Source: a bacterium (GTDB lineage: Bacteria > SZUA-182 > DTGQ01). From it: a stretch of DNA of 64,000 bases. Within the stretch, counting starts at the first letter, position 1. Every line of letters starts with the position of its first letter. Shown piece by piece: positions 8,632 to 64,000 of the stretch. Below the pieces are notes generated by a model. That model saw only the letters and a list, made by a program, of their open reading frames with translations. It had not been told where the DNA came from and ran no database searches. The stretch is taken from the NCBI GenBank assembly GCA_023512255.1, contig JAILZY010000011.1, forward strand, positions 1 through 64,000. Direction: 5' to 3'. A program made the position numbers and the translations under genes.

Positions 8632-9273
8632 CCAACGAAGAAATAGCCAAATTCTTCAACACAACGCGGCCACACATCCAGGGCAACCCAAACCTGCGTG
8701 ATCCCCTCAGGGATGGTTCCGCAGGCGCTAGCACTTCCCCAGCAGCGCTGCTCGCAGGTGCGGCAGGTAGCAAGGTGGCTCTGCACGCACCAGCACTTCC
8801 TGTTTTTGGCTCATATAGCCGATGCTAGACTTTACGGTGTTCCGCACGCACCAGCACTTCCTGATCGCGCCAGGGCGTTCAGACGAACCGAAAAAGCTCT
8901 CGAAGCCTTGCTGCAAGGTCGCGGCAGCCAAACAGCACCAAAGACCACCACGGGCGAGTTGAAAAATATCATGCCTGCTCTTATAATCCAGCTGGGGAAG
9001 CTTATGATAAGTAAGCGGAGATATGCCGCAATCCAATTTACCTGTCCGCTAAGTTTGATCGCACTAGGGAGGATCTTGAGGGTAAGCTCTTTGGGACAGA
9101 GCTTAAACGCCAAGTCTGATCGCAAGCGGTAGGATCGCGTTATCAACCTAAGGATGATGGTACTTTTGCGCCAAGTCTGATCGCACGCGGGAGGATCGTT
9201 ATGACCGAGCGAAGCCACCAGGGGACAGGTCTTTAAGGCATGACCGAGCGAGGCCACCCGAGAACAGGTTTTC

Positions 9274-9441
9274 AAGGCATTCCCGGCCATCGCGAACCTG
9301 GCCGACAAATCCGACGGAGGCAAGGTGCGAATCCGCATCGAGGGCTCATCGGCCGCGGGCTTCGATCCTGTCTGGCTGCGCAACGCCGTGGACGAGCCGC
9401 TCGACGAAGCAGACATCGAGCGGAGCAGTGTAGATGGTTAA
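9274..9441 (+). pseudogene. Truncated C-terminal remnant resembling DUF499-type ATPase
   Basis: Frame reads KAFPAIANLADKSDGGKVRIRIEGSSAAGFDPVWLRNAVDEPLDEADIERSSVDG*; no intact upstream ORF. Confidence 0.4.
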
Positions 9442-9506
9442 ATAAATATAAGCGATTTATTTTTAATTATTTTTATATTTTTTTTATTTTTATTATATAA
9501 TATATA

Positions 9507-9618
9507 CGCTCTTATATATCAGACACCATAAACCCTATATCAGAAAACCATAAACTCTCGCAGGGGCTTAGCTCTTATTAGGGTTATGTCTCTCAATGGT
9601 AGCTAATAAATAAGAGCG
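9507..9618 (-). mobile_element. MITE-like palindromic element, family B copy 1 (TIR CGCTCTTAT)
   Basis: CGCTCTTATATATCAGACACCATAAACCC...GGGTTATGTCTCTCAATGGTAGCTAATAAATAAGAGCG; reverse orientation to 18483 and 30439 copies; AT-repeat flanks. Confidence 0.85.
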
Positions 9619-9661
9619 ATAATATATTAATATCCAGCTCCTATAATATGCAGCTCCAGGA

Positions 9662-11794
9662 TTATAGGCTACAGCCGGGCGACGTGGGACAGCCCCCTGA
9701 GTACTCAGCCTCAGCCGTAGTGTACCAGGCCTCCTCTTCTACCTTTTCCTTATACTGCCCAGGCAGGGAGAGAACCTGATCTGGTTTTGAGCCGTAGCGA
9801 TAGATGGTAATTCCCTTGCAGCCAAGATGATAAGCCTGACGGTAGATCTTTTTTACCTCATCCACTGTAGCTTCAGCAGGCAGATTGATGGTTTTGGACA
9901 CAGAATTATCCGTGTATTTTTGAAAAGCAGCCTGAATCTTAAGGTGCCATTCAGGTGCAATATCAAGCGCGGTAACAAACACTCGGCGGACATCCTCAGG
10001 GAGCTCAAGAAGCTGCTTGATCGACCCTAGTCTGGCGATCTGTCCCATAAGCTCCTGGCTGAAAAAGCCGCGCTCTTTAGCCACTTTTTCAAACACCGGG
10101 TTGACCTCGGTCAGCTTGGTCCCATCCATGATGTTGCGGATAAAGCTCAGGGCAAAGACCGGCTCAATGCCGCTTGAGCAGCCGGCAATAATGCTGATGG
10201 TACCGGTAGGCGCAACTGTGGTTGTGGTGGCATTTCTGACTGCAGCCTCACCCCTTCGGGCATAGACTGAGGCCGGGAAATTAGGAAAGGCTCCTCTTTC
10301 TCTAGCCAGGAGTCGAGACTGATTCCAGGCCTCTTCCTGTATATGCCTCATAATCCGCTCGGCCATCTCAACCGCCTGATCAGAATCATACGGTATCCCA
10401 AGCTCAAACAGAAGGTCAGCAAAGCCCATAACCCCAAGGCCTATCTTGCGGTTTGCTTTGGTGATTTTCTCGATCTCGGGCAGGGGAAAGCGGTTTATCT
10501 CGATGATATCATCGAGAAATCGGACCCCAAGATGAACAATTTTAGTCATCTGTTCCCAATCGATCTCTTTTCCCCTAACCAGGCGGGCCAGGTTAATGGA
10601 GGCTAGGTTGCAGCTTTCGTATGGGAGCAGGGGAAGCTCGCCGCAAGGGTTAGTGGCCTCTATCTGGCCAAGCTCAGGCGTGGGATTGGCCCGGTTTATG
10701 GTATCGAGAAAGATCATGCCCGGATCACCACTCTTCCAGGCCATGTGGGCAATTAGGTCAAAAATCTCCCCAGCCGGAACTCGCCTGACTTCCTGACCAT
10801 TTCTGGGATTAATCAGGGGATAATCCCTCCCCGCCTCAAGGGCCTGCATGTAGTCATCGGACGCGGCTACGGAGAGGTTAAAATTTCGAAACTTTCCCTC
10901 CTCTCCCTTAGCAGTGATAAAGTCAATAATATCAGGATGATCTATCCGCAGGATACCCATATTGGCCCCTCGCCTTCTGCCTCCCTGCTTGACCACCCCA
11001 GTGGCGGTATCGAAAATCTCCATGAAGGAAACAGGACCAGAGGCAATGCCCATCGTGGACATAACCATGTCTCCTCGAGGCCGCAGCCGAGAAAAGGAAA
11101 AGCCTGTTCCCCCGCCGCTCTGGTGGATGAGGGCCATATTTTTTACCGCATCAAATATGCTCTCGATAGAGTCTTCTACCGGAATGACAAAACAGGCAGA
11201 CAACTGTCCCATCTGAGTTCCAGCGTTCATCAGGGTTGGGGAGTTGGGCATAAATAGCCGGCTAGCCATTAGTGTATAAAATTCCTCCTCGAAAAACTTG
11301 ACTCTAGACCCAGAGCCATACTGGCGCTCAGCCTCAGCCACAGCCCTAGCTACCCGGCGAAACATCTGAGCCGGTGACTCAATTATCCTCCCTTGCTCAT
11401 CTTTCCTAAGATACCTTCTCTGCAAAACCCGAACGGCATTGACCGGCAGCTTCAGCTCATCCCGCACCCCCATCCAGCTCTTTATTTCCCTAATTTCCTG
11501 ATGCCGCCTTCGGTATAGAATATAAGCTCTAGCCACCTGAGCAAACCCCTCCTTAATCAGCACCTCTTCAACCACATCCTGAATTTCCTCAACAGAGGGT
11601 ACTTCCCCAAACCGCTCCCTGAGCAGGGGAATGATTCTGTCGGCTAGCTCATTGGCTCTCTGCTCAGACTCTGCTTCATCCCGCAAGACTTCAACAAAGG
11701 CCCGATAAAGCACGGATTGAATCTTTTTTCGATCAAAATGCACTAGCTCACCGCTGCGGCGGCGAACCTGCTTGATAGTGGTCTTTTCTTCCAT
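9662..11794 (-). CDS. nrdJ: Adenosylcobalamin-dependent (class II) ribonucleoside-diphosphate reductase with ATP-cone
   Basis: 710 aa; N-terminal ATP-cone, PNSPTLMNAG, HQSGGGTGFSFSRLRP, NPCGE, PTGTISIIAGCSSGIEP. Confidence 0.93.
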   Translation of the reverse strand: MEEKTTIKQVRRRSGELVHFDRKKIQSVLYRAFVEVLRDEAESEQRANELADRIIPLLRERFGEVPSVEEIQDVVEEVLIKEGFAQVARAYILYRRRHQEIREIKSWMGVRDELKLPVNAVRVLQRRYLRKDEQGRIIESPAQMFRRVARAVAEAERQYGSGSRVKFFEEEFYTLMASRLFMPNSPTLMNAGTQMGQLSACFVIPVEDSIESIFDAVKNMALIHQSGGGTGFSFSRLRPRGDMVMSTMGIASGPVSFMEIFDTATGVVKQGGRRRGANMGILRIDHPDIIDFITAKGEEGKFRNFNLSVAASDDYMQALEAGRDYPLINPRNGQEVRRVPAGEIFDLIAHMAWKSGDPGMIFLDTINRANPTPELGQIEATNPCGELPLLPYESCNLASINLARLVRGKEIDWEQMTKIVHLGVRFLDDIIEINRFPLPEIEKITKANRKIGLGVMGFADLLFELGIPYDSDQAVEMAERIMRHIQEEAWNQSRLLARERGAFPNFPASVYARRGEAAVRNATTTTVAPTGTISIIAGCSSGIEPVFALSFIRNIMDGTKLTEVNPVFEKVAKERGFFSQELMGQIARLGSIKQLLELPEDVRRVFVTALDIAPEWHLKIQAAFQKYTDNSVSKTINLPAEATVDEVKKIYRQAYHLGCKGITIYRYGSKPDQVLSLPGQYKEKVEEEAWYTTAEAEYSGGCPTSPGCSL

Positions 11795-45148: not shown

Positions 45149-46147
45149 ATGGAATGCGCGGTTATTACTACATATCGCTGTAATGCTCGATGCCAGATGT
45201 GCAATACTTGGCAGGCACCTACCTCAAAGAGCGAAGAGTTTAATCCAGCCATTTTGGAGAAAATCCCTGGCGGCATGATTCGACTCAACATTACCGGTGG
45301 TGAGCCGATGCTGAGGGATGACATCATGGATATCGTAAGCATTCTGGATAAAAAGACCAAAAGGCTAGAAATCAGCACCAATGGCTATTTCACTGACCGG
45401 ATCATCAAGGTGTGCGAGCGGTTTCCTAATATCACCATTCGGGTAAGTGTCGAGGGGCTGCCAAAGCTCAATGATGAGCTTCGGGGAATCAAGAACGGCT
45501 TTGACCATGCTCTGCGGACTATTTTAAAACTCAAAGCTATGGGCATAAGAGACATTGGCTTTGGCATTGTGATCTCGGATCGCAACTGCTCTGATCTTTT
45601 GGAATTATACACGCTCTGCTCCAGTATGGGGATAGAATTCGGGAATGCCACGATGCATAACTCATTCTATTTCCATAAACTTGACAACAAGATAGAGGAT
45701 GTGGATAAGGCTGTCGGCCAGATGAAGCGCTTCATCCAAGCTCTTCTCCAAAGCCACAGGAGCAGCTTGCGGATGCGGCTTAAAGATTGGGCCCGAGCAT
45801 ACTTGAATCTTGGAACCCTTGGTTATATTCAAGGCAAAGCCAGGCCGCTTGGCTGTGGTGCAGCTACGGATACCTTTTTCATTGATCCCTGGGGTAGGGT
45901 TATGGCCTGCAATGGCTCGGCTGAGCCCTGGATCATGGGGGATCTGAAAACCCAATCATTTGATGATATATGGTATGGCCCACAAGCAGAAGCAGTGCGG
46001 CAGAAGGTGCGAGAGTGCCGGCGCAACTGCTGGATGACCGGCACTGCCGTGCCAGCTATGCGAAAGAATATCTGGGTGCCGCTTATCTGGATCATCAAAA
46101 GTAAACTTAATCTTGCTCTCGGCAAGGAGGTTGTGCCCGAATGTTAA
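45149..46147 (+). CDS. Radical SAM/SPASM protein
   Basis: TTYRCNARCQMCNTW (CxxxCxxC); C-terminal CGAATDTFFIDPWGRVMACNGS and CRRNC. Confidence 0.88.
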   Translation: MECAVITTYRCNARCQMCNTWQAPTSKSEEFNPAILEKIPGGMIRLNITGGEPMLRDDIMDIVSILDKKTKRLEISTNGYFTDRIIKVCERFPNITIRVSVEGLPKLNDELRGIKNGFDHALRTILKLKAMGIRDIGFGIVISDRNCSDLLELYTLCSSMGIEFGNATMHNSFYFHKLDNKIEDVDKAVGQMKRFIQALLQSHRSSLRMRLKDWARAYLNLGTLGYIQGKARPLGCGAATDTFFIDPWGRVMACNGSAEPWIMGDLKTQSFDDIWYGPQAEAVRQKVRECRRNCWMTGTAVPAMRKNIWVPLIWIIKSKLNLALGKEVVPEC

Positions 46148-51818: not shown

Positions 51819-52886
51819 ATGATCATTACCAGAACACCATTTAGAATAACTCTGGGGGGAGGAGGAACCGATTTACCATCATACTACACTCAATACGGAG
51901 GATTTGTTTTTAGCGCGGCCATCAACAAGTATATGTTCATTAACTTGAATCGACCAGTGGTCGACGATCTGGTCAGGGTAAAATACACCAAATCTGAAAC
52001 CGTCAAACACCGGGATGATCTACAGCATGAAATTGCCAAGGGGGCCCTGAGGATGTTGGGCATTGAAAGGGCTATCGAGATTATCTCCTCAGCCGACATT
52101 CCAGACGGGACAGGGCTCGGTTCATCAAGCTGTTATGCCGTTGGGCTGCTGAACGCCATTCATGCGCTAAAGCGCGATTATATCAGCCTTCCTGAGTTGG
52201 CTGAGGAAGCTTGCTATCTTGAGATTGAGTTATTGAAAAAACCGATTGGCAAGCAAGATCAATACATTGCTACCTTTGGTGGATTGACTGCCTTTGAGAT
52301 CGCTAAGGATGGCCGGGTTACTGTGATCAGGGCTGATGTCTCATCGAGTGTGTTAGATGATTTGAAGCGAAATTTGCTGATTTTCTACACCGGAGTATCG
52401 CGTCAGAGTATGGATATCTTGAGTGAGCAGAACAAGGGCGCTCAGACTAATAAGAAAACGGTTTTAGAAAGTCTCCATTATATTAAAGAGAGCGGCTATC
52501 GGATTAAGGAGCTGATCGAAAGTGGCAACTTGACCGATTTTGGCCTGATGATGGATAAGCACTGGGAGTATAAGAAAAAGATGTCTTCTAAGATCTCTAA
52601 TCCGGAATTTGATCGGATTTATGAAGTGGCTAAAGAGTGCGGTGTTCTCGGCGGCAAGATTACCGGTGCCGGTGGAGGAGGATTTTTCCTGTTTTACATC
52701 GAGAAAGGGCATGAGCGGCTGCGAACAGCAATGCATATGATGGGGCTTCGGGAAATGAGATTTAACTTTGAATTTGAAGGCTCAAAGGTTTTGGTCAACC
52801 TGATGAATAGCGAAGATGAAGGTCAGAGTCGCTATGTATGGACTCCTTCGCGGCTAGAGAGAATGGCGGTAATTCATGCGGTATAG
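51819..52886 (+). CDS. hddA: GHMP kinase, D-glycero-alpha-D-manno-heptose 7-phosphate kinase-like
   Basis: RTPFRITLGGGGTDLPSYY; IPDGTGLGSSSCYAVGLLNA; GKITGAGGGGFFLFY. Confidence 0.87.
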   Translation: MIITRTPFRITLGGGGTDLPSYYTQYGGFVFSAAINKYMFINLNRPVVDDLVRVKYTKSETVKHRDDLQHEIAKGALRMLGIERAIEIISSADIPDGTGLGSSSCYAVGLLNAIHALKRDYISLPELAEEACYLEIELLKKPIGKQDQYIATFGGLTAFEIAKDGRVTVIRADVSSSVLDDLKRNLLIFYTGVSRQSMDILSEQNKGAQTNKKTVLESLHYIKESGYRIKELIESGNLTDFGLMMDKHWEYKKKMSSKISNPEFDRIYEVAKECGVLGGKITGAGGGGFFLFYIEKGHERLRTAMHMMGLREMRFNFEFEGSKVLVNLMNSEDEGQSRYVWTPSRLERMAVIHAV

Positions 52887-52962
52887 GTATAGTTCTTGGG
52901 TATGGGTATATTATGGGTATAGAGATTATGGGTATAGAGAAAGAACCATTTAGAGCAAGGCT

Positions 52963-53796
52963 ATGAAACTTAAGGGTAAAATTGCCATTATTACTGGCGG
53001 CAGCCGGGGGATAGGGAAAGCCATAGCCAGGGCATTTTTGGCTGAGAGCGCCTCGGTAGCCATTGCTGGTCGGAATCAGGATGAGCTGACCAAGACTAGC
53101 CAAGAGTTGTCAAGGTTTGGAGTTATTCGCAGCTTTCGGGCTGATATCTCGGAGGAAAAGGACATACAGAAGCTTGTGGCCGAGGTTTTGGATACTTTTG
53201 GCACCATTGATGTGCTGGTGAACAATGCAGCTGTGCAGGGACCGATCGGGAAATTTTGGGAAGTAGGCTTTGATGATTGGGTTAACAATATCAATATTAA
53301 TCTGCTGGGTACTGCCCGATGTATCCGTGAGGTATTGCCTATTATGATAGCCAAAAAGGCAGGTAAAATCATCAACCTGTCAGGTGGTGGAGCCACTGCC
53401 CCAAGAGCCTACTTTTCAGCCTATGCCGCGGGGAAGGCGGCTGTTGTTCGGTTCACAGAAACTCTGGCCGAAGAGCTTAGAGAGTATCATATCGATGTCA
53501 ATGCTATAGCTCCGGGGGCGGTAAATACAAGGATGCTGGATGAGGTATTGGCTGCAGAAGATAGAGCTGGGGATAAAGAGCTGCGGGAGGCTAAGAAGAG
53601 AAAAGAAAAAGGGGGTACCCCACCTGAGCTAGCAGCCGCTTTGGCGGTATTTTTAGCCTCCTCGGCCTCTGACGGTCTGAGCGGGCGTCTTATCAGTGCG
53701 GTTTGGGATGATTGGATGCGGTTTGGACCGGATCGGATTCAAGAGGTTATGTCGGGAGATTTATATACCCTGAGAAGGGTTAGCCAAAAGGGATAG
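52963..53796 (+). CDS. SDR family oxidoreductase
   Basis: AIITGGSRGIGKAIARAF; NNAAVQGP; YFSAYAAGKAAV. Confidence 0.9.
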   Translation: MKLKGKIAIITGGSRGIGKAIARAFLAESASVAIAGRNQDELTKTSQELSRFGVIRSFRADISEEKDIQKLVAEVLDTFGTIDVLVNNAAVQGPIGKFWEVGFDDWVNNININLLGTARCIREVLPIMIAKKAGKIINLSGGGATAPRAYFSAYAAGKAAVVRFTETLAEELREYHIDVNAIAPGAVNTRMLDEVLAAEDRAGDKELREAKKRKEKGGTPPELAAALAVFLASSASDGLSGRLISAVWDDWMRFGPDRIQEVMSGDLYTLRRVSQKG

Positions 53797-53845
53797 TAAT
53801 CGGGTCTTGTGGAGTTGATGAGATGATGAGGGAGAAGATCAAGAT

Positions 53846-54850
53846 ATGCAAGTAGCCATCATAGGAGCAGGTTTAATCGGGAATAAGAGAGCTGCGGCCA
53901 TAAGGAAGTTGCCAGAGTGCAAACTGGTGGCGGTTTGTGACCTCAATCTTGAACGGGCCAAGAAATTGGCTCAAGAGTTTGGTGCAGAGGCCTATCAGAG
54001 TTGGGAAGAGATGGGGACACGGCGAGACGATATCGAGTTAGTAATCGTGGCTACCATAAACAAGTTTTTAGCTCCTATCACTCTATTCTTTCTAGAGCGG
54101 GGAAAGCATGTTTTGTGTGAAAAGCCTCTGGGGAGAAATGCCTCAGAATCCAAGCTCATGGTAGAGGCGGCCAGAGAGAGAGGAGTAAAGCTTAAAACCG
54201 GCTTTAACCACCGCCATCATCCAGGCATAGCCAGGGCGCGGCAGCTGGTGGCTGAGGGTCAGATTGGTAAAATTAGCTTTTTGCGCTGTAGGTATGGTCA
54301 CGGAGGTAGGCCAGGATATGAGCATGAGTGGCGGGCGGATAAGGACCTTTGCGGCGGGGGTGAACTCCTGGATCAGGGAGTGCATGTGGTAGACCTCTTC
54401 CGCTGGTTTGTCGGGGAATTCCATGAGGCTTTTGGCTATCTTTCAACCTATTTTTGGAAGATGGAGGTTGAGGATAACGCCTTTGCTTTGTTTAAGACTA
54501 AGGCTGGACAAATTGCCTTTATGCATACTAGCTGGACTCAGTGGAAAAACCTGTTCTCTTTTGAGGTTTTTGGCTCTGAGGGGTATGTGGTTGTGGAAGG
54601 GTTGGGCGGAAGCTACGGCCCACAGAGGCTAAGAATAGGCAGAAGGAGACCAGAGGGCTGGGTGCCGGAAGAGGAGTTTATCGATTTTCCCGGTGAGGAT
54701 ATTTCCTGGGAAGAGGAGTGCAAGGAACTGGTGCAGGCCATTAAGGAAAATCGTGAGCCCCTGGGAAGCGGCTGGGACGGGTATCAGGCTAATCGAATGC
54801 TTGGAGCGGTGTACGAGTCAGTCCGGCTTGGCAGGCCAGTAAATTTATAG
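53846..54850 (+). CDS. Gfo/Idh/MocA family oxidoreductase
   Basis: AIIGAGLIGNKRAAAI; HVLCEKPLGRNASE; GGGELLDQGVHVVDLFRWF. Confidence 0.9.
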   Translation: MQVAIIGAGLIGNKRAAAIRKLPECKLVAVCDLNLERAKKLAQEFGAEAYQSWEEMGTRRDDIELVIVATINKFLAPITLFFLERGKHVLCEKPLGRNASESKLMVEAARERGVKLKTGFNHRHHPGIARARQLVAEGQIGKISFLRCRYGHGGRPGYEHEWRADKDLCGGGELLDQGVHVVDLFRWFVGEFHEAFGYLSTYFWKMEVEDNAFALFKTKAGQIAFMHTSWTQWKNLFSFEVFGSEGYVVVEGLGGSYGPQRLRIGRRRPEGWVPEEEFIDFPGEDISWEEECKELVQAIKENREPLGSGWDGYQANRMLGAVYESVRLGRPVNL

Positions 54851-54872
54851 GCCTTTTACCTTCAAAATAAAG

Positions 54873-55521
54873 ATGATTTTCTTCTGGCTATTGATTTTTA
54901 CTCCTCTACCCAAAGGAACAATAACCTTTTGGCCTTCTGCTACAGTTCACCACCTTGTCTGCCTCGGGCTATTGATCAGTCTTCTGGTTGAGATGAGATG
55001 GAGGATGGGTAAATCAAACGGAGGCTGGCAAAAGGCGCGAACCTGTTTGGATCTGCCCATCCTGATCTTTTTCCTCCTCCTTACCCTGTCGGCTGTATTC
55101 TCGATTGATCGCAAGCACAGTCTTTTTTGAATTATTGAAGTTTATTGATTGTGTAATTATTTACTACACGGTAGTATTTCGGTGTGATAACCAAAGAGAT
55201 ATAAATTTATGCCTCTATCTCATCATGGGCGTAGGATTTTTCTTCTCTGTCCGGGGCATTATTCAATACCTCGGAGGAGCAGACCGCTCTTTTTGGCTCC
55301 TCGCCAACGAGCTTTCAGGGCCGTTTGATAATTCTGATGTTTTCGCTGGCTATCTGATTATGGTCATATTGCCTGGGCTTGGGGTAATGACTGCTCCCTT
55401 GCTCCATTTTATGTCAAATACTATCCTTCTGGCTACCTTAAGCGGCCTGGCTATGAGCAGATATTTTCAAGAGAAAAGCCGGCTGAAGGAGCCTTCCTAT
55501 ATCAGAGATAGCAGTTTTTGA
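54873..55521 (+). pseudogene. Frameshifted, truncated O-antigen ligase-like gene
   Basis: ORFs 54873-55130 and 55105-55521 join across T6 run at about 55122; GPFDNSDVFAGYLIMVILPG is Wzy/WaaL-like; too short for full length. Confidence 0.7.
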
Positions 55522-55611
55522 AAAAATCTTAGGTCTCTCTTTTGAGCAATAGCCACATTTTGATAACCACCCCCTTTTTGATAACAACACCATTTGCGAG
55601 GACCAATCAAG

Positions 55612-56553
55612 ATGAACAAAAAAACCATTCTGGTTACTGGCTGTGCAGGCTTTATCGGCAGCAACCTGTGTAGATGGCTCTGCGATGAAGGGTATATGGT
55701 AGTGGGGATTGATAACCTCTCTTACGGTACCCTTGAGAATATTGATCCACGGGTGATCTTTCACCGGAAAGATATTCGGGATCCGGAGATTTATCCCTTA
55801 TTTGAAGGGGTAGATACCGTGTTTCATCTGGCGGCTAAAAATTGCCTGATCGATTGCCTGCGAAATCCTCTTGAAACGAGCGAAATTAATGTCTATGGAA
55901 CAGTCAATGTTCTTGAAGGAGCACGAAGAGCCGGGGTGAGAAAATTTATCTACGCCGATACCTCGGCTGAATATGAAGGGATCATGGATTTTCCCTCTAG
56001 GGTAGACAGGGTGTGTCCTATAAGCACCTATGCTGTGAGCAAGAGGGGGGCGGCTCTCTTTTGTGAGAGCTACCGCAAGCTTTTTGGCATGCGCATTACG
56101 GTCTTGAGATATTTTAATGTCTATGGTCCGGCTCAGGATTGGCGCCGAGTGGTGCCTCCAGTAATGAGCTCTTTCATTATGAAAATGCTCAAAAGGGAAA
56201 GGCCGGTGATTTATGGAAATGGAGAAAAGAGACGTGATTTTATCTATGTGGATGATGTCAACCGGTTTCATCTTATGGCCATGAATGATGAGCGGCTAGA
56301 TGGCGGTACATTTAATGTGGGCAGCGGGATAAATTACTCGATTAATGATATCTTTTCAGCCATCGAAAATATTCTGCGCACTGGGCTGACTCCAATCTAC
56401 CGAGAGGACCTGCCCGGGGAGGCACAAATCACCTTGGCGGATATCTCCCGGGAGAGAACCCTCGGGTGGGAACCAAAGGTAAGCCTGGAAGAAGGGTTGA
56501 AAAGGTCAATAGAGTATATTCAAAGCAAAGTGCTTGGGATGAGTCTGCTATGA
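55612..56553 (+). CDS. NAD-dependent epimerase/dehydratase
   Basis: TGCAGFIGSNLCRWLCDEG; ISTYAVSKRGAALFCE; start at MNKKTI, slightly inside the track ORF. Confidence 0.88.
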   Translation: MNKKTILVTGCAGFIGSNLCRWLCDEGYMVVGIDNLSYGTLENIDPRVIFHRKDIRDPEIYPLFEGVDTVFHLAAKNCLIDCLRNPLETSEINVYGTVNVLEGARRAGVRKFIYADTSAEYEGIMDFPSRVDRVCPISTYAVSKRGAALFCESYRKLFGMRITVLRYFNVYGPAQDWRRVVPPVMSSFIMKMLKRERPVIYGNGEKRRDFIYVDDVNRFHLMAMNDERLDGGTFNVGSGINYSINDIFSAIENILRTGLTPIYREDLPGEAQITLADISRERTLGWEPKVSLEEGLKRSIEYIQSKVLGMSLL

Positions 56554-57263
56554 AGGGGATCATTTTGTCTGCTGGCAAAGGAACAAGGCTTGGCTCATAT
56601 ACCCGAAACATACCTAAGGTGATGATGGAAGTTGGAGGAAAGCCGGTTCTGGAATATGGAATTCTTCTCTTCAAACAGCATGGGATTGAGGAGATTTTTA
56701 TCAATCTTCACCACTGCCCGCAGGTGATTCAGAACTACTTCGGGGATGGTCGAGCGTGGGGGGTGAAGATTCGGTATCATTTTGAAGAGGAGCTTCTCGG
56801 CACAGCCGGAGCGGTAAAGGCTTTTGAGGATTGGATAGGAGCGGATGATGAAGTTTTTGTTTTATATGGAGATAATTTGACTAATGCTGATCTGGCTGCT
56901 ATGAGACGTTTTCATCAGGAAAAGAGAGGAGTGCTGACTGTAGCCTTTATTGAGGAAGAGGATGTACTGAAAAGCGGCATTATTGCCTTTGATGATCATT
57001 ACCGGATAGTGAAAATGCTCGAAAAACCAAAGCCGGATGAGGTTTTCAGCCATTTTGTGAATGCAGGGCTGCTCTTGATGGAGCCTGCAGTGCTTGACCT
57101 GATTCCAAAGGGTGTATTCTATGATTTCGGCTATCATCTTCTTCCAAGAATGATTCTGGAAGGAATGGAAGTCTATGCTTATCCACTCGATGGATACGTA
57201 ATTTCTATTGATACACCGGAATATTATCTTCAGGCTAAGGAAAAATTTAGACTTAAGGGTTGA
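56550..57263 (+). CDS. hddC: Nucleotidyltransferase, D-glycero-alpha-D-manno-heptose 1-phosphate guanylyltransferase-like
   Basis: KGIILSAGKGTRLGSYTRNIPKVMMEVGGKPVLEY; ATG at 56550 overlaps previous stop. Confidence 0.82.
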   Translation: MKGIILSAGKGTRLGSYTRNIPKVMMEVGGKPVLEYGILLFKQHGIEEIFINLHHCPQVIQNYFGDGRAWGVKIRYHFEEELLGTAGAVKAFEDWIGADDEVFVLYGDNLTNADLAAMRRFHQEKRGVLTVAFIEEEDVLKSGIIAFDDHYRIVKMLEKPKPDEVFSHFVNAGLLLMEPAVLDLIPKGVFYDFGYHLLPRMILEGMEVYAYPLDGYVISIDTPEYYLQAKEKFRLKG

Positions 57264-57321
57264 AAGATTAGAGGTCAACAATAATCATCACACCGTCAGA
57301 AAAGGGGATATATAAGGTAAC

Positions 57322-58050
57322 ATGGAAGAAATAAGAAGAGCAGTATTTTTAGATCGGGATGGGGTGATCAACGAGATTATCTACCATCAAGATATCGGGG
57401 TGATTGATAGTCCCTTTACACCTGAGCAGTTTCACCTGATGGATGGAGCGGCGTGGGCTATACAAGAGATCAATAGAATAGGCTTGCTGGCTATTGTGGT
57501 TACCAATCAGCCTGGGATTGCTAAGGGACATTTGAGTAAGCGGGTTTTAGACTTGATCACAGAGAAAATGATTAAAGAGCTGGCTCTTGGTGGGGCCTGT
57601 CTGGATGATATCTACATGTGTCTTCACCACCCGAAGGGGAGCGGCAACGGGAGCGGAGATCAGCGCTACGTGATGGACTGTAGCTGCCGAAAGCCAAAAC
57701 CTGGTTTGCTCATCGAGGCTGCCAAGAAGCATCAGATAAATCTGGCTGCCTCCTACATGATCGGCGACAGCATTACGGATATCCAGGCCGGGGCTTCTGT
57801 CGGATGCACTACTTTTTTGATCGGCCATCCAAAGTGTGATTTGTGCCGGATTATGGAAAAAAGCGGAGTGAGGCCAGACTTTATTGTACCAAGTCTTCTG
57901 GAAGCAGTAAAGGTTATCAAGTACCAGGAAAATTTAAAAAACAGTTTCCAAGGCTCATCTTCTGAGCAGTTATGTTTGAGTGAAATATTTATTGATGACA
58001 ACTTTTACGCTCATGAGAATCCCTTGTCAATTGAGAGAAAATTTTGTTAA
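57322..58050 (+). CDS. gmhB: HAD-IIIA D-glycero-manno-heptose bisphosphate phosphatase-like
   Basis: AVFLDRDGVINEI; VVTNQPGIAKG; CSCRKPKPGLL; MIGDSITDIQAG. Confidence 0.87.
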   Translation: MEEIRRAVFLDRDGVINEIIYHQDIGVIDSPFTPEQFHLMDGAAWAIQEINRIGLLAIVVTNQPGIAKGHLSKRVLDLITEKMIKELALGGACLDDIYMCLHHPKGSGNGSGDQRYVMDCSCRKPKPGLLIEAAKKHQINLAASYMIGDSITDIQAGASVGCTTFLIGHPKCDLCRIMEKSGVRPDFIVPSLLEAVKVIKYQENLKNSFQGSSSEQLCLSEIFIDDNFYAHENPLSIERKFC

Positions 58051-58214
58051 CCTAATATTTTCGCTTTTTCTCTAAGTCTTTGATTTTACTAAGGTTTGGT
58101 ATGAAAGATAACTTCAAAAGAATTTCAAGGTATGGAGAGATTTTCCGCAAAAGTGTAGACTTAACCCAGGTTATAAGAAAAAATTTTAAGGAAAGTTAAG
58201 GAGAGAACAACAGC

Positions 58215-58811
58215 ATGGCTTACACAACTGATTACTTTTTGGAGATACAGGAAATTATACGGCGGATCAATCTTTCAGACATAGACAAAATGATAGACCT
58301 TTTAGCTGAAATAAAAACAAGAGGCGGAAGACTTTTCTTCCTAGGCGTTGGCGGTGGGGCAGGAAATGCCTCTCATGCAGTGAATGATTTTCGCAAAATT
58401 GCCGGCTTTGAAGCCTATAGCCCAACGGATAACGCTTCTGAGCTTACTGCTCGCGTCAATGACGATGGTTGGGAGACGGTATTTGTAAACTGGCTTAAAG
58501 GAAGCAGGCTTAGGGCTTGGGATGGGCTATTTATCTTTTCGGTCGGCGGTGGAAATCTGGAAAAGAAGATCAGCGCCAATCTGGTATCTGCTATTCAATA
58601 TGCCCGTGAGACTGGAGCCAAAATCCTTGGCATTGTGGGCCGTGATGGCGGCTATACAGCTCAGGCCGCAGATGCCTGTGTGATTATTCCTACCATTAAC
58701 CCCCAAACAGTTACTCCGCATACCGAATCATTCCAAGGAGTAATCTGGCATTTGATCGTCTCTCATCCCAAAATGAAGGTCTCGGAAATGAAATGGGAAT
58801 CGGTCAAATAA
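58215..58811 (+). CDS. gmhA: SIS-domain sedoheptulose 7-phosphate isomerase-like
   Basis: GRLFFLGVGGGAGNASHAVNDFRK; FSVGGGN. Confidence 0.82.
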   Translation: MAYTTDYFLEIQEIIRRINLSDIDKMIDLLAEIKTRGGRLFFLGVGGGAGNASHAVNDFRKIAGFEAYSPTDNASELTARVNDDGWETVFVNWLKGSRLRAWDGLFIFSVGGGNLEKKISANLVSAIQYARETGAKILGIVGRDGGYTAQAADACVIIPTINPQTVTPHTESFQGVIWHLIVSHPKMKVSEMKWESVK

Positions 58812-58935
58812 GGATACCTAATAACGCAAAGACTAACCATTTGCGCCCCTTGACCTGTTTGCCGGCATTATAAAAACCTATCGCACCTATCGCAGTAGAA
58901 TACCTATACGCAAGGATTAACCATAACTTAAATAG

Positions 58936-59070
58936 CGGTCTTTTCGCTAATAAAGTACGCAAGCGGCGACGGCACAAGGTCCGCACCTACAATTAGCTTA
59001 TCCGCCCCTACAATTGATAGCGTAATTAATTCGCTGTGCAACTTGTGTTACGTACTTAGCGAAAGAACCA
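58936..59070 (+). mobile_element. MITE-like element, family A copy 8 (internal duplication)
   Basis: CGGTCTTTTCGCTAATAAAGTACGCAAGC...GTTACGTACTTAGCGAAAGAACCA; internal CGCACCTACAATTAG / CGCCCCTACAATTGATAG. Confidence 0.85.
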
Positions 59071-59117
59071 CTTATAGGAAGATCAGCATAGTAACCACAA
59101 CTTTAGGGAGATCAGCG

Positions 59118-59789
59118 ATGAAGATTTTTATTGATTCAGCTAACTTGAAAGATATCGAAGAGGCCTTGAAAAGAGGATTCGCCAGTGGGATTACCACTAA
59201 TCCCTCGATTTTAGCCAAAGAGAAAAAATGTGATTTTAAGGAGCATATTCATAAAATTATCAGCCTAGTCAGGGAGTTTGGCTTGCGGGATATCCCTCTC
59301 AGTGTGGAGGTTTTCTCCACCGAGCCTGACGAGATGGTCAGGCAGGCTGAGCAGTTTGTTAAGGAATTTCGCTATGAGGGGCTTAACATTAAAATTCCCA
59401 TCGGTTGGGATGAATTATCTGTAATCAAGAGATTGAAGGATAAAGGTATCAAGGTGAACTGCACCTGCTGTATGTCCTATAATCAGGCTATCATGGCAGC
59501 AGATGCCGGCTCTGACTTTGTAAGCCTCTTCAGCGGTCGAATCAGAGACATCGGCTACAATTCCACAGCGGTTATCAGCGCCGTAAAACGAACCCTGGCC
59601 GACTGGGAATGTCCATCAAAGATCATTGTCGGCAGCATTCGTCATATAGCTGATATTAATGAGGCCCTGCAGGCTGGAGCAGATATTGTGACTGTTCCGC
59701 CCAAATTCTTCACCCAGATGTGTTCCCATCCCAAAACTACCGAGGTGGTCAATCAATTTATCACTGATTTCAGGGAGTGGCTAGAGTAA
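59118..59789 (+). CDS. Transaldolase (fructose-6-phosphate aldolase-like)
   Basis: MKIFIDSANLKDIEEALKRGFASGITTNPSILAKE; ATG at 59118, since the track start at 59043 lies in the MITE. Confidence 0.9.
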   Translation: MKIFIDSANLKDIEEALKRGFASGITTNPSILAKEKKCDFKEHIHKIISLVREFGLRDIPLSVEVFSTEPDEMVRQAEQFVKEFRYEGLNIKIPIGWDELSVIKRLKDKGIKVNCTCCMSYNQAIMAADAGSDFVSLFSGRIRDIGYNSTAVISAVKRTLADWECPSKIIVGSIRHIADINEALQAGADIVTVPPKFFTQMCSHPKTTEVVNQFITDFREWLE

Positions 59790-59833: not shown

Positions 59834-61036
59834 ATGGCTGAAGAAGAAAAATTATTCCTGGCTTGTTTGCGCTTTTTTTTCAGGAAAATGGATTCAGTAG
59901 CTGAAATCCGAGCTTGCCTTGGGAAAGAGATAGACTGGGATCTTATTCTTTCCTGGGCGCAATGGCATGGGGTAAGTCCTCTGCTGTATCACATCCTGAA
60001 AGAAATAGGCTGGTCAGGGATACCAAAGCAGGTCAGGGAGAGATTAGAGCATAGTTTTCGGCTGAATATGGCCAGAAACCTTTTCCTGTGGGCAGAAACA
60101 AGCAAGGTTTTGACTGCCCTAGAAAAGCAGAGAATAATCAGCCTTCCACTAAAGGGTATTTTTTTGTCGGAGGAAGTCTATCCAGACATATCATTTCGGG
60201 TGGTAACTGATATTGATCTGCTGATTCGGCAAGAGGATCTGGCCGCAGCCGAAGCCTCACTGATAGAGCTGGGGTATTGCCGCGACCCTTTTATCAGAAA
60301 GGGGCTTCTACCAGATAACTGTTATACACTACATATGGAGAAGGGAGAAAGAGTCGGGCAGAGACTATGTGTTGAGTTGCACTGGGGGCTAGCTAACCCT
60401 CGGGATTATGCCCTGCCAGTGAAAAGCTGGTGGGAGGAAATCTTTCATAACAGTCGCAGCGCCTATTCTTGGAACGGAATAAGCTGTTTGCGGATGGGAC
60501 CTGAGATAACCCTACTCTATCTGACTATCAATGCCCATATGTCCCGCTATTCATTCCTCAAGCAGTTGATTGATATCGGCCAGGTTATCAACCATTATGA
60601 GCATGAGATGGATTGGAAAAAAGTAGCTGGCATGGCTAGTGAGCTTGGCCTTCTCGATAATCTGGTTTTTGCCTTGGGACTGGTTCAGCGAATGTTTGAC
60701 CTGCGGATAGGAAGCGAATTGATTAATTGGCCACTCTCATGGAAGCAGAGGATGCTTCGGTCGATCTTTAGGGAACACAGGCTTGTGCAGGGCTTGATAG
60801 GCCAAGATTTGAGACAATTTCTTCTGCTGTTTTTACTCGATGAGAAGATGATCATCAGCTCGATCTTTAAGGTGTTATTCTCCTCACGACAGACCATTGC
60901 TTACCGCTATGGTCTGCCTCCTCAGTCATGGAGTAATTACTTCTATCTTATTCTCAATCCCTTGCTTTCTATCTATCGTTTGTTTCGAGGGGCAGTTGTG
61001 GATTGCTGGTCAGGTAAGGGGGTGGGTAAAACATAA
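59834..61036 (+). CDS. Nucleotidyltransferase family protein (PF14907-like)
   Basis: LPLKGIFLSEEVYPDISFRVVTDIDLLIRQEDLAAAEASLIELGY...VELHWGLANP. Confidence 0.82.
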   Translation: MAEEEKLFLACLRFFFRKMDSVAEIRACLGKEIDWDLILSWAQWHGVSPLLYHILKEIGWSGIPKQVRERLEHSFRLNMARNLFLWAETSKVLTALEKQRIISLPLKGIFLSEEVYPDISFRVVTDIDLLIRQEDLAAAEASLIELGYCRDPFIRKGLLPDNCYTLHMEKGERVGQRLCVELHWGLANPRDYALPVKSWWEEIFHNSRSAYSWNGISCLRMGPEITLLYLTINAHMSRYSFLKQLIDIGQVINHYEHEMDWKKVAGMASELGLLDNLVFALGLVQRMFDLRIGSELINWPLSWKQRMLRSIFREHRLVQGLIGQDLRQFLLLFLLDEKMIISSIFKVLFSSRQTIAYRYGLPPQSWSNYFYLILNPLLSIYRLFRGAVVDCWSGKGVGKT

Positions 61037-61233
61037 GAGATGTTTGCATCCGATGTATTTTAATAATTAATTATAAAAAATATTTTTTACCTTATTGTTT
61101 AAATTAAAATTATCAGTAATAAATTTTATTTTATGTTTTATATTGAAATTCGATTTAATCTTGGATATAATAGGAAGGAAAGTAGAAATTTTCATATTAC
61201 CAGATTATCAAGCATACTATCAGGGAGATTTAT

Positions 61234-61530
61234 ATGCTCGCAAAATATATCGCCAGAAATGAAAATACAGCTTCAAGGATAATTGATGGGCAAGCCGTAA
61301 TCATGACCCTGACAGACAATACCTTACACACGTTGAATGCAGTAGGCTCAAGAATATGGGAATTATGTACTGGCCAAAAAACCATGGAAGAAATTATTCA
61401 GATAATCCAGGAAGAATATATATCCTCAAGACCCGATGAGATCAGATCAGATTGTGAGATTTTCTTTAAGGATTTGTACAGTAAGGGGATGGTGGTTATA
61501 TTGGATGAGAAGGCCCAAGGGAATAATTAG
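61234..61530 (+). CDS. PqqD family peptide chaperone
   Basis: 98 aa; NTLHTLNAVGSRIWELCTGQKTMEEIIQIIQEEY. Confidence 0.88.
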   Translation: MLAKYIARNENTASRIIDGQAVIMTLTDNTLHTLNAVGSRIWELCTGQKTMEEIIQIIQEEYISSRPDEIRSDCEIFFKDLYSKGMVVILDEKAQGNN

Positions 61531-61539
61531 GTACCGATC

Positions 61540-62661
61540 ATGAAAGATATTATATCCTACGTCCAGGAGAAGAAGATCCCCCTTGCAGTACACATTAATT
61601 TAACTAGGCGATGTAATCTCCACTGCCTTCACTGCTGTGTGGGGAAGGGAAGAAAGACCGCATCTGGCCAAGCAGGAACGACTGAGGCTGGTTTTGAGCT
61701 AGGGCTGATGCACATTCAGCGAGTCTTTGAGGAGCTGGCTCAAGTTGGCTGTCTTCTTCTCACCCTTTCAGGCGGGGAAGTTTTGCTTCGAGATGATCTG
61801 CTTGAGATTATAAGCCGGGCGAGGGAGTTGGATTTTGCGGTTAAGATTTTTACTAACGGAACCTTAGTTGGTAGAAAGGAGGCCCAAGCATTTCATAGAC
61901 TACGTATTCAGGAAGTGCATGTCAGCCTATATGGGGCAGATGCAAAGATACATGATCTGATCACCGGTGTTTCCGGCTCCTGGACGAAGAGCATGGAAGG
62001 GATTCGGTGGCTGAGGGAGGAAGGCGTAGCGGTTAAGGTAAAGTGCCCCATAATGAAGCAAAACCTGGCCGAGTATCGTAAGGTATATGAGCTGGCGGTG
62101 AGTCTTGGAGCTGATTATGCTTTTGACCCGATGATTACCGTCCGGGATGATGGGAACCGAGATCCGCTCAACTACCGAATAAGTCAAGAAGATTTGCAGA
62201 TGGTCCTAGCTGATCCTATTTTTCAGACTAAGCGCAAAAGCTATAGGGAAAGAGAGGAGAGTTTTGCCTGCTCAGCCAGTATGATGAGTGAAATAAGTGA
62301 AGAGGTCCTCTGCAGTGCCGGTCATTATATCTGCTTCATTTCTCCAGAGGGTGATATTAACCCTTGTGTTCAGTTGCCTATTTTCTGTGGCAATGTCCTA
62401 GAGCATGATTTTCAATGGATTTGGTATCATTCACCGCAGATGCTTAGAATTCGGAATCTGCGGATGAAAGATGTTCGGAGCTGCAATAACTGTAGGTACC
62501 TCCCCTGGTGTGCCAGATGTCCTGGCTTAGCCTATCTTGAAGATGGCGATCTCCTTGGTCCTTCCAGTGCTGCCTGTTGGATGGTGCAAGCAAAAGAGGG
62601 AGACAGACAGTTTAATAATCAGATACAAGCCAATAATCAAATACAACCTATTGTAACTTAA
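61540..62661 (+). CDS. Radical SAM/SPASM peptide-maturase-like enzyme
   Basis: LTRRCNLHCLHCC (CxxxCxxC); LTLSGGEVLLRDDL; SPASM cysteines CSAGHYICFISPEGDINPCVQLP...CNNCRYLPWCARCPG. Confidence 0.9.
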   Translation: MKDIISYVQEKKIPLAVHINLTRRCNLHCLHCCVGKGRKTASGQAGTTEAGFELGLMHIQRVFEELAQVGCLLLTLSGGEVLLRDDLLEIISRARELDFAVKIFTNGTLVGRKEAQAFHRLRIQEVHVSLYGADAKIHDLITGVSGSWTKSMEGIRWLREEGVAVKVKCPIMKQNLAEYRKVYELAVSLGADYAFDPMITVRDDGNRDPLNYRISQEDLQMVLADPIFQTKRKSYREREESFACSASMMSEISEEVLCSAGHYICFISPEGDINPCVQLPIFCGNVLEHDFQWIWYHSPQMLRIRNLRMKDVRSCNNCRYLPWCARCPGLAYLEDGDLLGPSSAACWMVQAKEGDRQFNNQIQANNQIQPIVT

Positions 62662-62714
62662 GTTATTTTTGTAAACTAGGTTAACGTTCATCTATAAGTT
62701 AAGGAGGTAGAATC

Positions 62715-62879
62715 ATGGAAGAAAAAAAGACAACAGTCGCAAAACCAGCAGTCAAAAAGGTTTATGAAAAACCCCAGATAGTTTCCGAAGAAGTATTTGA
62801 GACCTTGGCTCTTGCCTGCTGCAAGAGTAATAACTGTAAGAATTACGGCCTTCCGAAGGGGATGCACGCTGTAAGTTAA
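62715..62879 (+). CDS. Candidate RiPP precursor peptide (54 aa), absent from the ORF track
   Basis: SD AAGGAGG at 62701-62707; MEEKKTTVAKPAVKKVYEKPQIVSEEVFETLALACCKSNNCKNYGLPKGMHAVS*; follows PqqD and rSAM/SPASM genes. Confidence 0.85.
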   Translation: MEEKKTTVAKPAVKKVYEKPQIVSEEVFETLALACCKSNNCKNYGLPKGMHAVS

Positions 62880-62991: not shown

Positions 62992-63011
62992 GCTCATCCT
63001 CCAGGATGAGC
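62992..63011. other. Perfect 8-bp hairpin GCTCATCC-TCCA-GGATGAGC
   Basis: Read directly. Confidence 0.7.
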
Positions 63012-63014
63012 ACT

Positions 63015-63060
63015 AATCACACACGTCTCTTCTTTGGGGGGAGGAAGAGTGGTGATTTTT
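63015..63060 (+). terminator. Putative rho-independent terminator
   Basis: AATCAC...CTCTTC-loop-GAAGAG..GTGATT followed by T run. Confidence 0.6.
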
Positions 63061-63200: not shown

Positions 63201-64000
63201 ATGAAACGAAAGTCTTTTACGATCCTGACATCATTATTGTTTGGATTTATACTCAGTTTATGCCTATTTTTTTGGCATACGCCGCCTGCCTATTCCCAGG
63301 ATAAGGCAGCGGAGAGTACTACTTTGAGTCCGTCGCCCAGAAAAACTTCTGGCGCCTACGTTATCGAAGATATAGCCTATGATCCTGAAACCCAAATTTA
63401 TACCTATACATATGTATTGCATAATCTGGGAAAACAGCAAGTTTGGTGGTGGGGTATATGGTATGAGGAAGATCCTCAAGCTATACTTGATGACTCTTCG
63501 GTAGATGAAAATGGCTTTGCCCCTACTGACTTGACTGACTGCTCGCCTGGATGGAAAAATTCTGCCCCTGAGAGACGGATGGGGTTTTATTTATACAGTG
63601 GTCCTAATGGGGAGCTAGGTTTTTATTCCACCTATGCCAGCGACTCTCGGTCGGGAAATAGCCCGATCGTTCCTGATTCTATCAATGTTCCCCGACTTGG
63701 AGGCCAGTGGGGATGGAATGGGCCAGGAGCGAATATTATCACCGCCTATGGAATCCAAAAAGGACAAACAGGCTATTATGTGATTCGGTCTAAAAAGTAT
63801 TTTCCAGATAATAAGATGTTTTTCTACAATACCAAGGATTACTGGAATTCCTACTTCGATCCTCAGACCGGGCAACTTGTCATCAGGGGGTTGGAATTTG
63901 TCTCTATAACTCAGCGGTCCTATTCGATATCAATGTCTCTGACCCGGGGGTATAATCTTATTTCGCAACCCCTTGAGGAGCTGATAACCTCAGACAATCT
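63201..64000 (+). CDS. Secreted hypothetical protein, 3' truncated by window end
   Basis: MKRKSFTILTSLLFGFILSLCLFFWHTPPAYSQ signal peptide, then open frame to the window end. Confidence 0.8.
   Translation, partial: MKRKSFTILTSLLFGFILSLCLFFWHTPPAYSQDKAAESTTLSPSPRKTSGAYVIEDIAYDPETQIYTYTYVLHNLGKQQVWWWGIWYEEDPQAILDDSSVDENGFAPTDLTDCSPGWKNSAPERRMGFYLYSGPNGELGFYSTYASDSRSGNSPIVPDSINVPRLGGQWGWNGPGANIITAYGIQKGQTGYYVIRSKKYFPDNKMFFYNTKDYWNSYFDPQTGQLVIRGLEFVSITQRSYSISMSLTRGYNLISQPLEELITSDN

Follow-up and report, generated by a model that had tools for sequence, protein, structure and literature searches.

In the LPP (linear polyphosphorylated peptide) family of ribosomally synthesised and post-translationally modified peptides (RiPPs), an HprK-like kinase (LppK) phosphorylates the core, and the SpI peptidase LppS cleaves off the leader behind Phe-Glu-Thr, as shown for LppA (Popov et al., 2026, Nat Commun, PMC13381572). 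LPPs are said to be restricted to Bacillota, and the LPP paper makes no mention of radical enzymes (PMC13381572). In the paeninodin and pseudomycoidin lasso peptide clusters, the kinases PadeK and PsmK phosphorylate the C-terminal Ser of the peptide, and PsmN adds hexoses to the phospho-Ser (PMC9266682). "NTP transferases" are standard in both lasso and LPP clusters (PMC9266682, PMC13381572). Here we describe a locus near the end of a 64,000-nucleotide stretch of DNA from a bacterium of a poorly studied lineage (contig JAILZY010000011.1 of assembly GCA_023512255.1, positions 1 to 64,000, forward strand), referred to below as the window. It encodes a 54-aa precursor peptide together with a PqqD-type RiPP recognition element (RRE), a radical SAM/SPASM enzyme, a PF14907 protein and, past the window end, an HPr-kinase-like protein. 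The product is likely to be a RiPP that is modified by the radical SAM enzyme, phosphorylated and probably glycosylated on its C-terminal Ser, and freed of its leader by a cut after Phe-Glu-Thr; its nearest kin would be the phosphopeptide-type clusters. Judged by its sequences, the locus would be a radical-SAM counterpart of these RiPPs; it falls outside LPP as defined because it has no Ser at core position +3 and adds a radical SAM enzyme.

Pfam and sequence inspection confirmed the four genes and the strong Shine-Dalgarno sequence that had been named in the original prediction, which was made from the letters of the window alone. All are on the + strand. The first gene (59834..61036) encodes a 400-aa PF14907 protein (NTP_transf_5, Pfam E 4e-52), an LppN/PsmN-type homologue with conserved K107-G108 and D126-x-D128. 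It is followed by a gene for a predicted discrete RRE, a 98-aa leader-binding protein of the PqqD family (61234..61530; PF05402, E 2e-15), and by a 373-aa radical SAM/SPASM maturase (61540..62661; Radical_SAM E 2e-21, SPASM E 4e-7). The conserved Cys residues of the maturase are C25, C29 and C32 (CxxxCxxC) and, in the SPASM region, C265, C276, C315, C318, C324, C327 and C346. The precursor gene (62715..62879) has a perfect Shine-Dalgarno match, AAGGAGG (62701..62707), 7 nt 5' of its ATG.

The 54-aa open reading frame (ORF) is a real gene, previously unnamed, because it has homologues in three related genomes, invariant residues, a low ratio of nonsynonymous to synonymous substitution (dN/dS) and a kept Shine-Dalgarno site. 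The homologues (57-72% identity, E 1e-16 to 1e-22) are found once in the same-genus genome G001, once in G002 and three times in G003. Over the six sequences 26 columns are invariant, including the whole of SEEVFETLAL, the three Cys, Tyr44, Pro47, His51 and Ser54. Pairwise dN/dS over the last 38 codons was 0.04-0.35 where computable, indicating purifying selection; elsewhere the synonymous sites were saturated. The AAGGAGG site is kept in G001 (locus L011), but the non-coding sequence downstream of the gene is not. Weak precursor matches with E above 0.05 from the initial search (e.g., in G031) were unsupported and were discarded. No Pfam or NCBIfam model matched the 54-aa precursor. Two strong hairpins are found 3' of the gene (62993-63049); they gave no Rfam match near the locus and are not conserved in G001.

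The leader of the precursor fits recognition by the PqqD-type protein. Residues 17-22, YEKPQI (62763..62780), match the RRE-binding motif [Y/W]xxPx[L/V/I/F/A] (PMC13381572), and Y17 and P20 are invariant. Held against the LPP leader (YxxPx[V/I]...FET), both YEKPQI and an invariant F28-E29-T30 (62796..62804) are present, and the spacer between the two falls two residues short of the LPP consensus. By analogy to LppA, the leader is predicted to be cleaved after Thr30, which would leave the core LALACCKSNNCKNYGLPKGMHAVS (residues 31-54, 62805..62876). Its three Cys, Lys37, Tyr44, Pro47, Gly49, His51 and the C-terminal Ser54 (62874..62876) are invariant in the six-sequence alignment. The solved structures closest to the PqqD protein are the lasso RRE TbiB1 (5v1u) and LppB of the LPP family (9x8z). 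In 9x8z, LppB residues N33, V35, I56, Y60, D70 and F74 contact the leader Tyr and Pro; N35, V37, I58, Y62, D73 and F77 of the window protein correspond to them. Among 68 PqqD proteins of the cassettes described below, the pocket residues N33, D70 and F74 are found in 56, 55 and 52, respectively. The features generally expected of an RRE-dependent RiPP are thus together here: a conserved precursor whose leader carries an RRE-binding motif and, next to it, genes for an RRE and for a modifying enzyme. The earlier reading, that this is a RiPP locus of the radical SAM kind with the 54-aa peptide as its precursor, has good support.

The contig extends 4.4 kb beyond the window end, and an HPr-kinase-like gene is found there (contig 66860-67718, or 8861-9718 of locus L019), 2.9 kb past the window. 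The gene order in this genome is PF14907, PqqD, radical SAM, precursor, (secreted protein), kinase. The same kinase gene lies 3' of the precursor in G001, G002 and G003. By NCBIfam, the G001 and G003 kinases are nearest to ScmC of the SynChlorMet cassette, below its cut-off. In relatives (L011 and L015) an archaeal-type SpI peptidase gene (weak TIGR02228 match) is convergent with the kinase gene. At the end of our own contig, a remnant of such a gene is present on the minus strand (L019 9958-10394, contig 67957-68393), consisting of the C-terminal part with an in-frame stop. A broken gene and an assembly edge cannot be told apart here, and the genome holds no other SpI peptidase copy. The adjacent PqqD and radical SAM genes that had been taken as a RiPP hallmark are indeed present, but the set is larger than that pair. 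Because of the HPr-kinase-like gene beyond the window and the SpI-type gene in relatives, the prediction that Ser54 is phosphorylated stands on a par with that of the radical chemistry.

The set recurs widely. A profile search with the kinase in 384 genomes, after which the neighbourhoods were read, found relatives in 37 genomes; kinase, PqqD and radical SAM genes occur together in 29 loci, including three that belong to the family of the window. In a second sample (286 genomes of one other phylum, 64 with the kinase), the three genes were found in 34 of the 40 loci read. PF14907 is a normal component of this cassette, because it is present in 19/29 and 22/34 of the loci. The original prediction had called it an unusual member, a view that these counts contradict. 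PF14907 is also found beside paeninodin-like lasso genes: a plasmid search with the protein returned one lasso cluster, in Paenibacillus cellulosilyticus, where it lies next to a cyclase, HPrK and a WxxP precursor. By family, this cluster may link the PF14907 protein of the window to PsmN-type activity. The prediction would have failed had no homologous small ORF lain near related PqqD-radical SAM pairs; it passed this check, as small ORFs of this kind were found both in close relatives and in distant cassettes. S24/SpI-like peptidases also recur in cassettes (e.g., L018 and L098) and in L055 are fused to PF14907. When 60 radical SAM proteins were placed in a tree, many of the enzymes tended to group by precursor type.

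Two extra precursor copies in G003 (loci L012 and L013) each adjoin their own PF14907 gene, and no PqqD, kinase or cassette radical SAM gene is found on the same contigs. This arrangement ties PF14907 to the peptide and suggests a pairing of the two, with the remaining enzymes acting in trans. In genome G111 (loci L044, L053, L054, L058 and L059), nine small ORFs match the leader model, several of them in tandem. They have three Cys and mostly a C-terminal Ser; the genome has three kinase genes, with no PqqD or radical SAM gene beside those sampled. A contig protein search with the radical SAM sequence alone gave no match, and with an alignment only two records, both labelled 'Pseudomonadota bacterium isolate CSMAG'. 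No relative was found in the viral contigs searched. A plasmid search with the same enzyme gave distant matches that belong to different systems, one of them a YcaO/TfuA cluster.

To compare the C-termini, small ORFs with Y-x-x-P near cassette genes were picked as precursors, a rule that is blind to the C-terminus. In the first set, 14 of 20 picked precursors (the window's family counted once) end in Ser, compared with 45 of 367 small ORFs from the same loci (12%; P about 3e-9), and in the second set 9 of 19, compared with 20 of 123 (16%; P 0.0015). Some of the listed ORFs are there by chance, and related loci are only partly independent. A C-terminal Ser in cassette precursors is a majority rule, not a law. 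Most picked precursors have two or more Cys, often with 'CK' at the core start, and none of the cassette precursors tested matched a Pfam or NCBIfam model. One peptide from another phylum (L149, VFETFVKTCCKSGAC...NTS) is strikingly similar to that of the window. Given the Ser enrichment, the invariance of Ser54 and the PadeK/PsmK precedent, Ser54 is the predicted phosphorylation site.

These counts bear on a simpler explanation, a plain sactipeptide or ranthipeptide locus with a distant kinase unrelated to the peptide. The window shares with that class a SPASM radical SAM enzyme adjacent to PqqD, an RRE and a core with three Cys, and its precursor and kinase genes are separated by a secreted-protein gene. 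However, the kinase gene directly abuts PqqD and radical SAM genes in tens of distant loci, it follows directly after the precursor in L014 and L015, and the C-terminal Ser is enriched. The kinase and PF14907 are foreign to the sactipeptide and ranthipeptide class, and the maturase has low similarity to sactisynthases. We regard such a locus as quite unlikely.

The reaction type of the radical SAM enzyme is the weakest point of the interpretation. The enzyme falls below every NCBIfam equivalog cut-off; the best models are AhbD, NirJ2, TIGR04053, ScmE and WgkB. Its scores against the AhbD, NirJ2, ScmE, WgkB, mycofactocin and PqqE models exceed those against the sactisynthases StsB (66 bits, cut-off 625), SkfB (63, cut-off 300) and AlbA (62, cut-off 850). 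Its best solved relative is PqqE. The original prediction had proposed thioether or other Cys-centred chemistry from the three core Cys. Thioethers are possible and unproven, the enzyme being nearer to AhbD, NirJ, PqqE and ScmE than to the sactipeptide synthases. A Cys-centred cross-link is favoured because two or more Cys recur in otherwise dissimilar cores, and from the sequences we would put its chance at a little over one half. In the same RiPP system the enzyme might instead leave the Cys alone and form a C-C cross-link (PqqE- or Wgk-like, e.g., at Tyr44 or Lys37) or carry out, for example, an epimerisation, with the Cys serving in a disulfide or as metal ligands. The model scores, the PqqE structure and the invariance of Lys37, Tyr44 and His51 in the close family would fit such a reaction, but distant cassettes lose the Tyr and His and usually keep two or more Cys, and subfamily scores of 60-160 bits do not settle a reaction type. 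This course is possible but on balance doubtful.

We also considered whether the 54-aa peptide might give rise to a small redox cofactor of the PQQ or mycofactocin kind and not to a peptide product. PqqD is present, the maturase resembles PqqE and the mycofactocin maturase, and the core is strongly conserved within the family. Between cassettes, however, the cores vary widely and only Cys and Ser features are kept, and G003 has three precursor variants while cofactor precursors keep a fixed core. The PQQ equivalog cut-offs were not reached (PqqE 107 bits, cut-off 381; PqqD 29, cut-off 46). A cofactor was rejected on the variable cores and the three G003 variants, and we consider it very improbable.

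For a radical-SAM-modified phosphopeptide, the following pathway is proposed. The PqqD-type RRE would bind the leader at Tyr17-x-x-Pro20-x-Ile22 and present the peptide. The radical SAM enzyme would then modify the Cys-rich core (CCK[SG]xxC), most likely introducing one or more cross-links from Cys. The HPr-kinase-like enzyme is predicted to phosphorylate the C-terminal Ser54, and the PF14907 enzyme may put a sugar or nucleotide group on the Ser54 phosphate. Finally, the archaeal-type SpI peptidase would cut after Phe-Glu-Thr30 to release a 24-residue product. Several points weigh against this pathway. The kinase has Asp-Glu (D179-E180) where the lasso kinases have Asp-Asp in their His-Lys-Asp-Asp motif; the variant is common to many cassettes and could alter activity. 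The LPP phosphosite (Ser at core +3) is Leu33 here in all six members, and the C-terminal Ser is not universal in the second set. Deletion of LppN had no visible effect in the published LPP system (PMC13381572). A 3.5-kb secreted-protein gene lies between the precursor and kinase genes, and every chemical step is an extrapolation from sequence comparison.

The locus resembles LPP clusters in its discrete RRE, HprK-like kinase, NTP transferase, lack of a lasso cyclase, polysaccharide-locus setting and YxxPx[V/I]...FET leader. Two relatives also carry a putative archaeal-type SpI gene, of which the contig of the window has a C-terminal piece with a stop. It differs in its added radical SAM/SPASM enzyme, Cys-rich core and C-terminal Ser, and its close relatives are records labelled Pseudomonadota whereas LPPs are assigned to Bacillota. 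The genes inspected around the cassette, not every one of which was classified, included no MsbA-like exporter, which is an LPP trait. With the paeninodin and pseudomycoidin clusters (PadeK, PsmK, PsmN) the locus shares an HPrK-like kinase, a PF14907-type enzyme, an RRE and a C-terminal Ser target; it differs in having a YxxP and not a WxxP leader and a radical SAM enzyme instead of a cyclase. A lasso peptide was rejected: the B2 protease family PF13471 is absent from the whole genome, and no Asn-synthase cyclase is found among the neighbours examined. In SynChlorMet (Scm; NCBIfam TIGR04248-TIGR04251), ScmC matches the kinase, ScmD the PqqD protein and ScmE the radical SAM enzyme, but Scm has two radical SAM proteins (ScmE and ScmF) and the locus one. 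These matches are far below the curated cut-offs (ScmE 122 bits vs 400, ScmD 26 vs 100, ScmC 46 vs 125 with the L011 kinase). The combination of HPrK-like, PqqD and radical SAM genes is not categorically new, because the SynChlorMet models show that such sets were noticed before. No paper on HPrK and radical SAM RiPPs was found in the open-access literature; subscription papers were outside the search and a prior description is possible.

The results suggest that the kinase/PF14907/SpI tagging module, familiar from lasso peptides and LPPs, is a portable unit, coupled also to radical SAM enzymes and spread well beyond Bacillota. For PF14907, still named 'uncharacterised', a phosphopeptide would be a natural substrate and the locus a compact system for tests. 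Tens of precursor sequences are now at hand with a simple signature: a Y-x-x-P leader, a Cys-rich core and frequently a C-terminal Ser.

Upstream of the RiPP genes are glycosyltransferase, sugar-transferase, aminotransferase, GHMP-kinase, nucleotidyl-transferase, HAD and SIS genes, i.e., a polysaccharide-type locus. Such surroundings suggest that the product is associated with the surface or capsule. It might even be that the kinase and PF14907 enzyme attach the modified peptide to a polysaccharide of the cell surface by way of the C-terminal phospho-Ser. Adjoining glycosyltransferase, sugar-nucleotide and heptose-type genes, the gene for a Wzy-type ligase that adjoins the L015 cassette, the transfer of hexoses to phospho-Ser by PsmN (PMC9266682) and the capsule loci in which LPP and paeninodin clusters sit all point this way. 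Gene proximity, however, is not attachment, which has been shown for no member, and we think this linkage unlikely. On the widest reading, there would be a RiPP class outside Bacillota that is large and so far undescribed. Its peptides would be cross-linked by a radical SAM enzyme within a Cys-rich core and also anchored to cell-surface polysaccharide through a sugar-bearing C-terminal phospho-Ser. In LPPs and paeninodin lasso peptides, this tagging module would then work with different primary modifiers. This is speculative, and we give it a low probability.

Directly upstream of the RiPP genes (51819-59789) is a GDP-heptose-synthesis-like set (GHMP kinase, nucleotidyl transferase, HAD phosphatase and SIS isomerase) followed by a transaldolase; the order is kept in G001. 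A promoter-like TTGAAA-17-TATAAT precedes the PqqD gene (61143..61171, + strand; 11/12 consensus matches); it is weak evidence, as chance would give the same number of these sites in the region. The gene between precursor and kinase (+ strand, start 63201..63998 in the window, ORF to contig 66651) encodes a secreted protein of 1149 aa with chitobiase/Fn3-type repeats. Its homologue in L011 matches PF13290/PF13287, and none lies between precursor and kinase in L015; its role in the peptide system is uncertain. The structure search by sequence found no solved structure recognisably related to the PF14907 protein or the kinase. A second radical SAM/SPASM protein (332 aa, 45149-46147) is encoded within the glycosyltransferase region, away from PqqD. 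Three further PF14907 genes of this genome (contigs C153, C32 and C88) have no kinase, PqqD or precursor nearby. The genome also has a second, different cassette on contig C8 (locus L141, 4360-10976, minus strand), which comprises an SpI/S24-like gene, PqqD, genes for a 428-aa HPrK-like protein and for a 465-aa fusion of PqqD with radical SAM, and a small ORF that ends in YEPPRMISYSEEELIEEMEGMAIQACSGFQGAVMSCSG.

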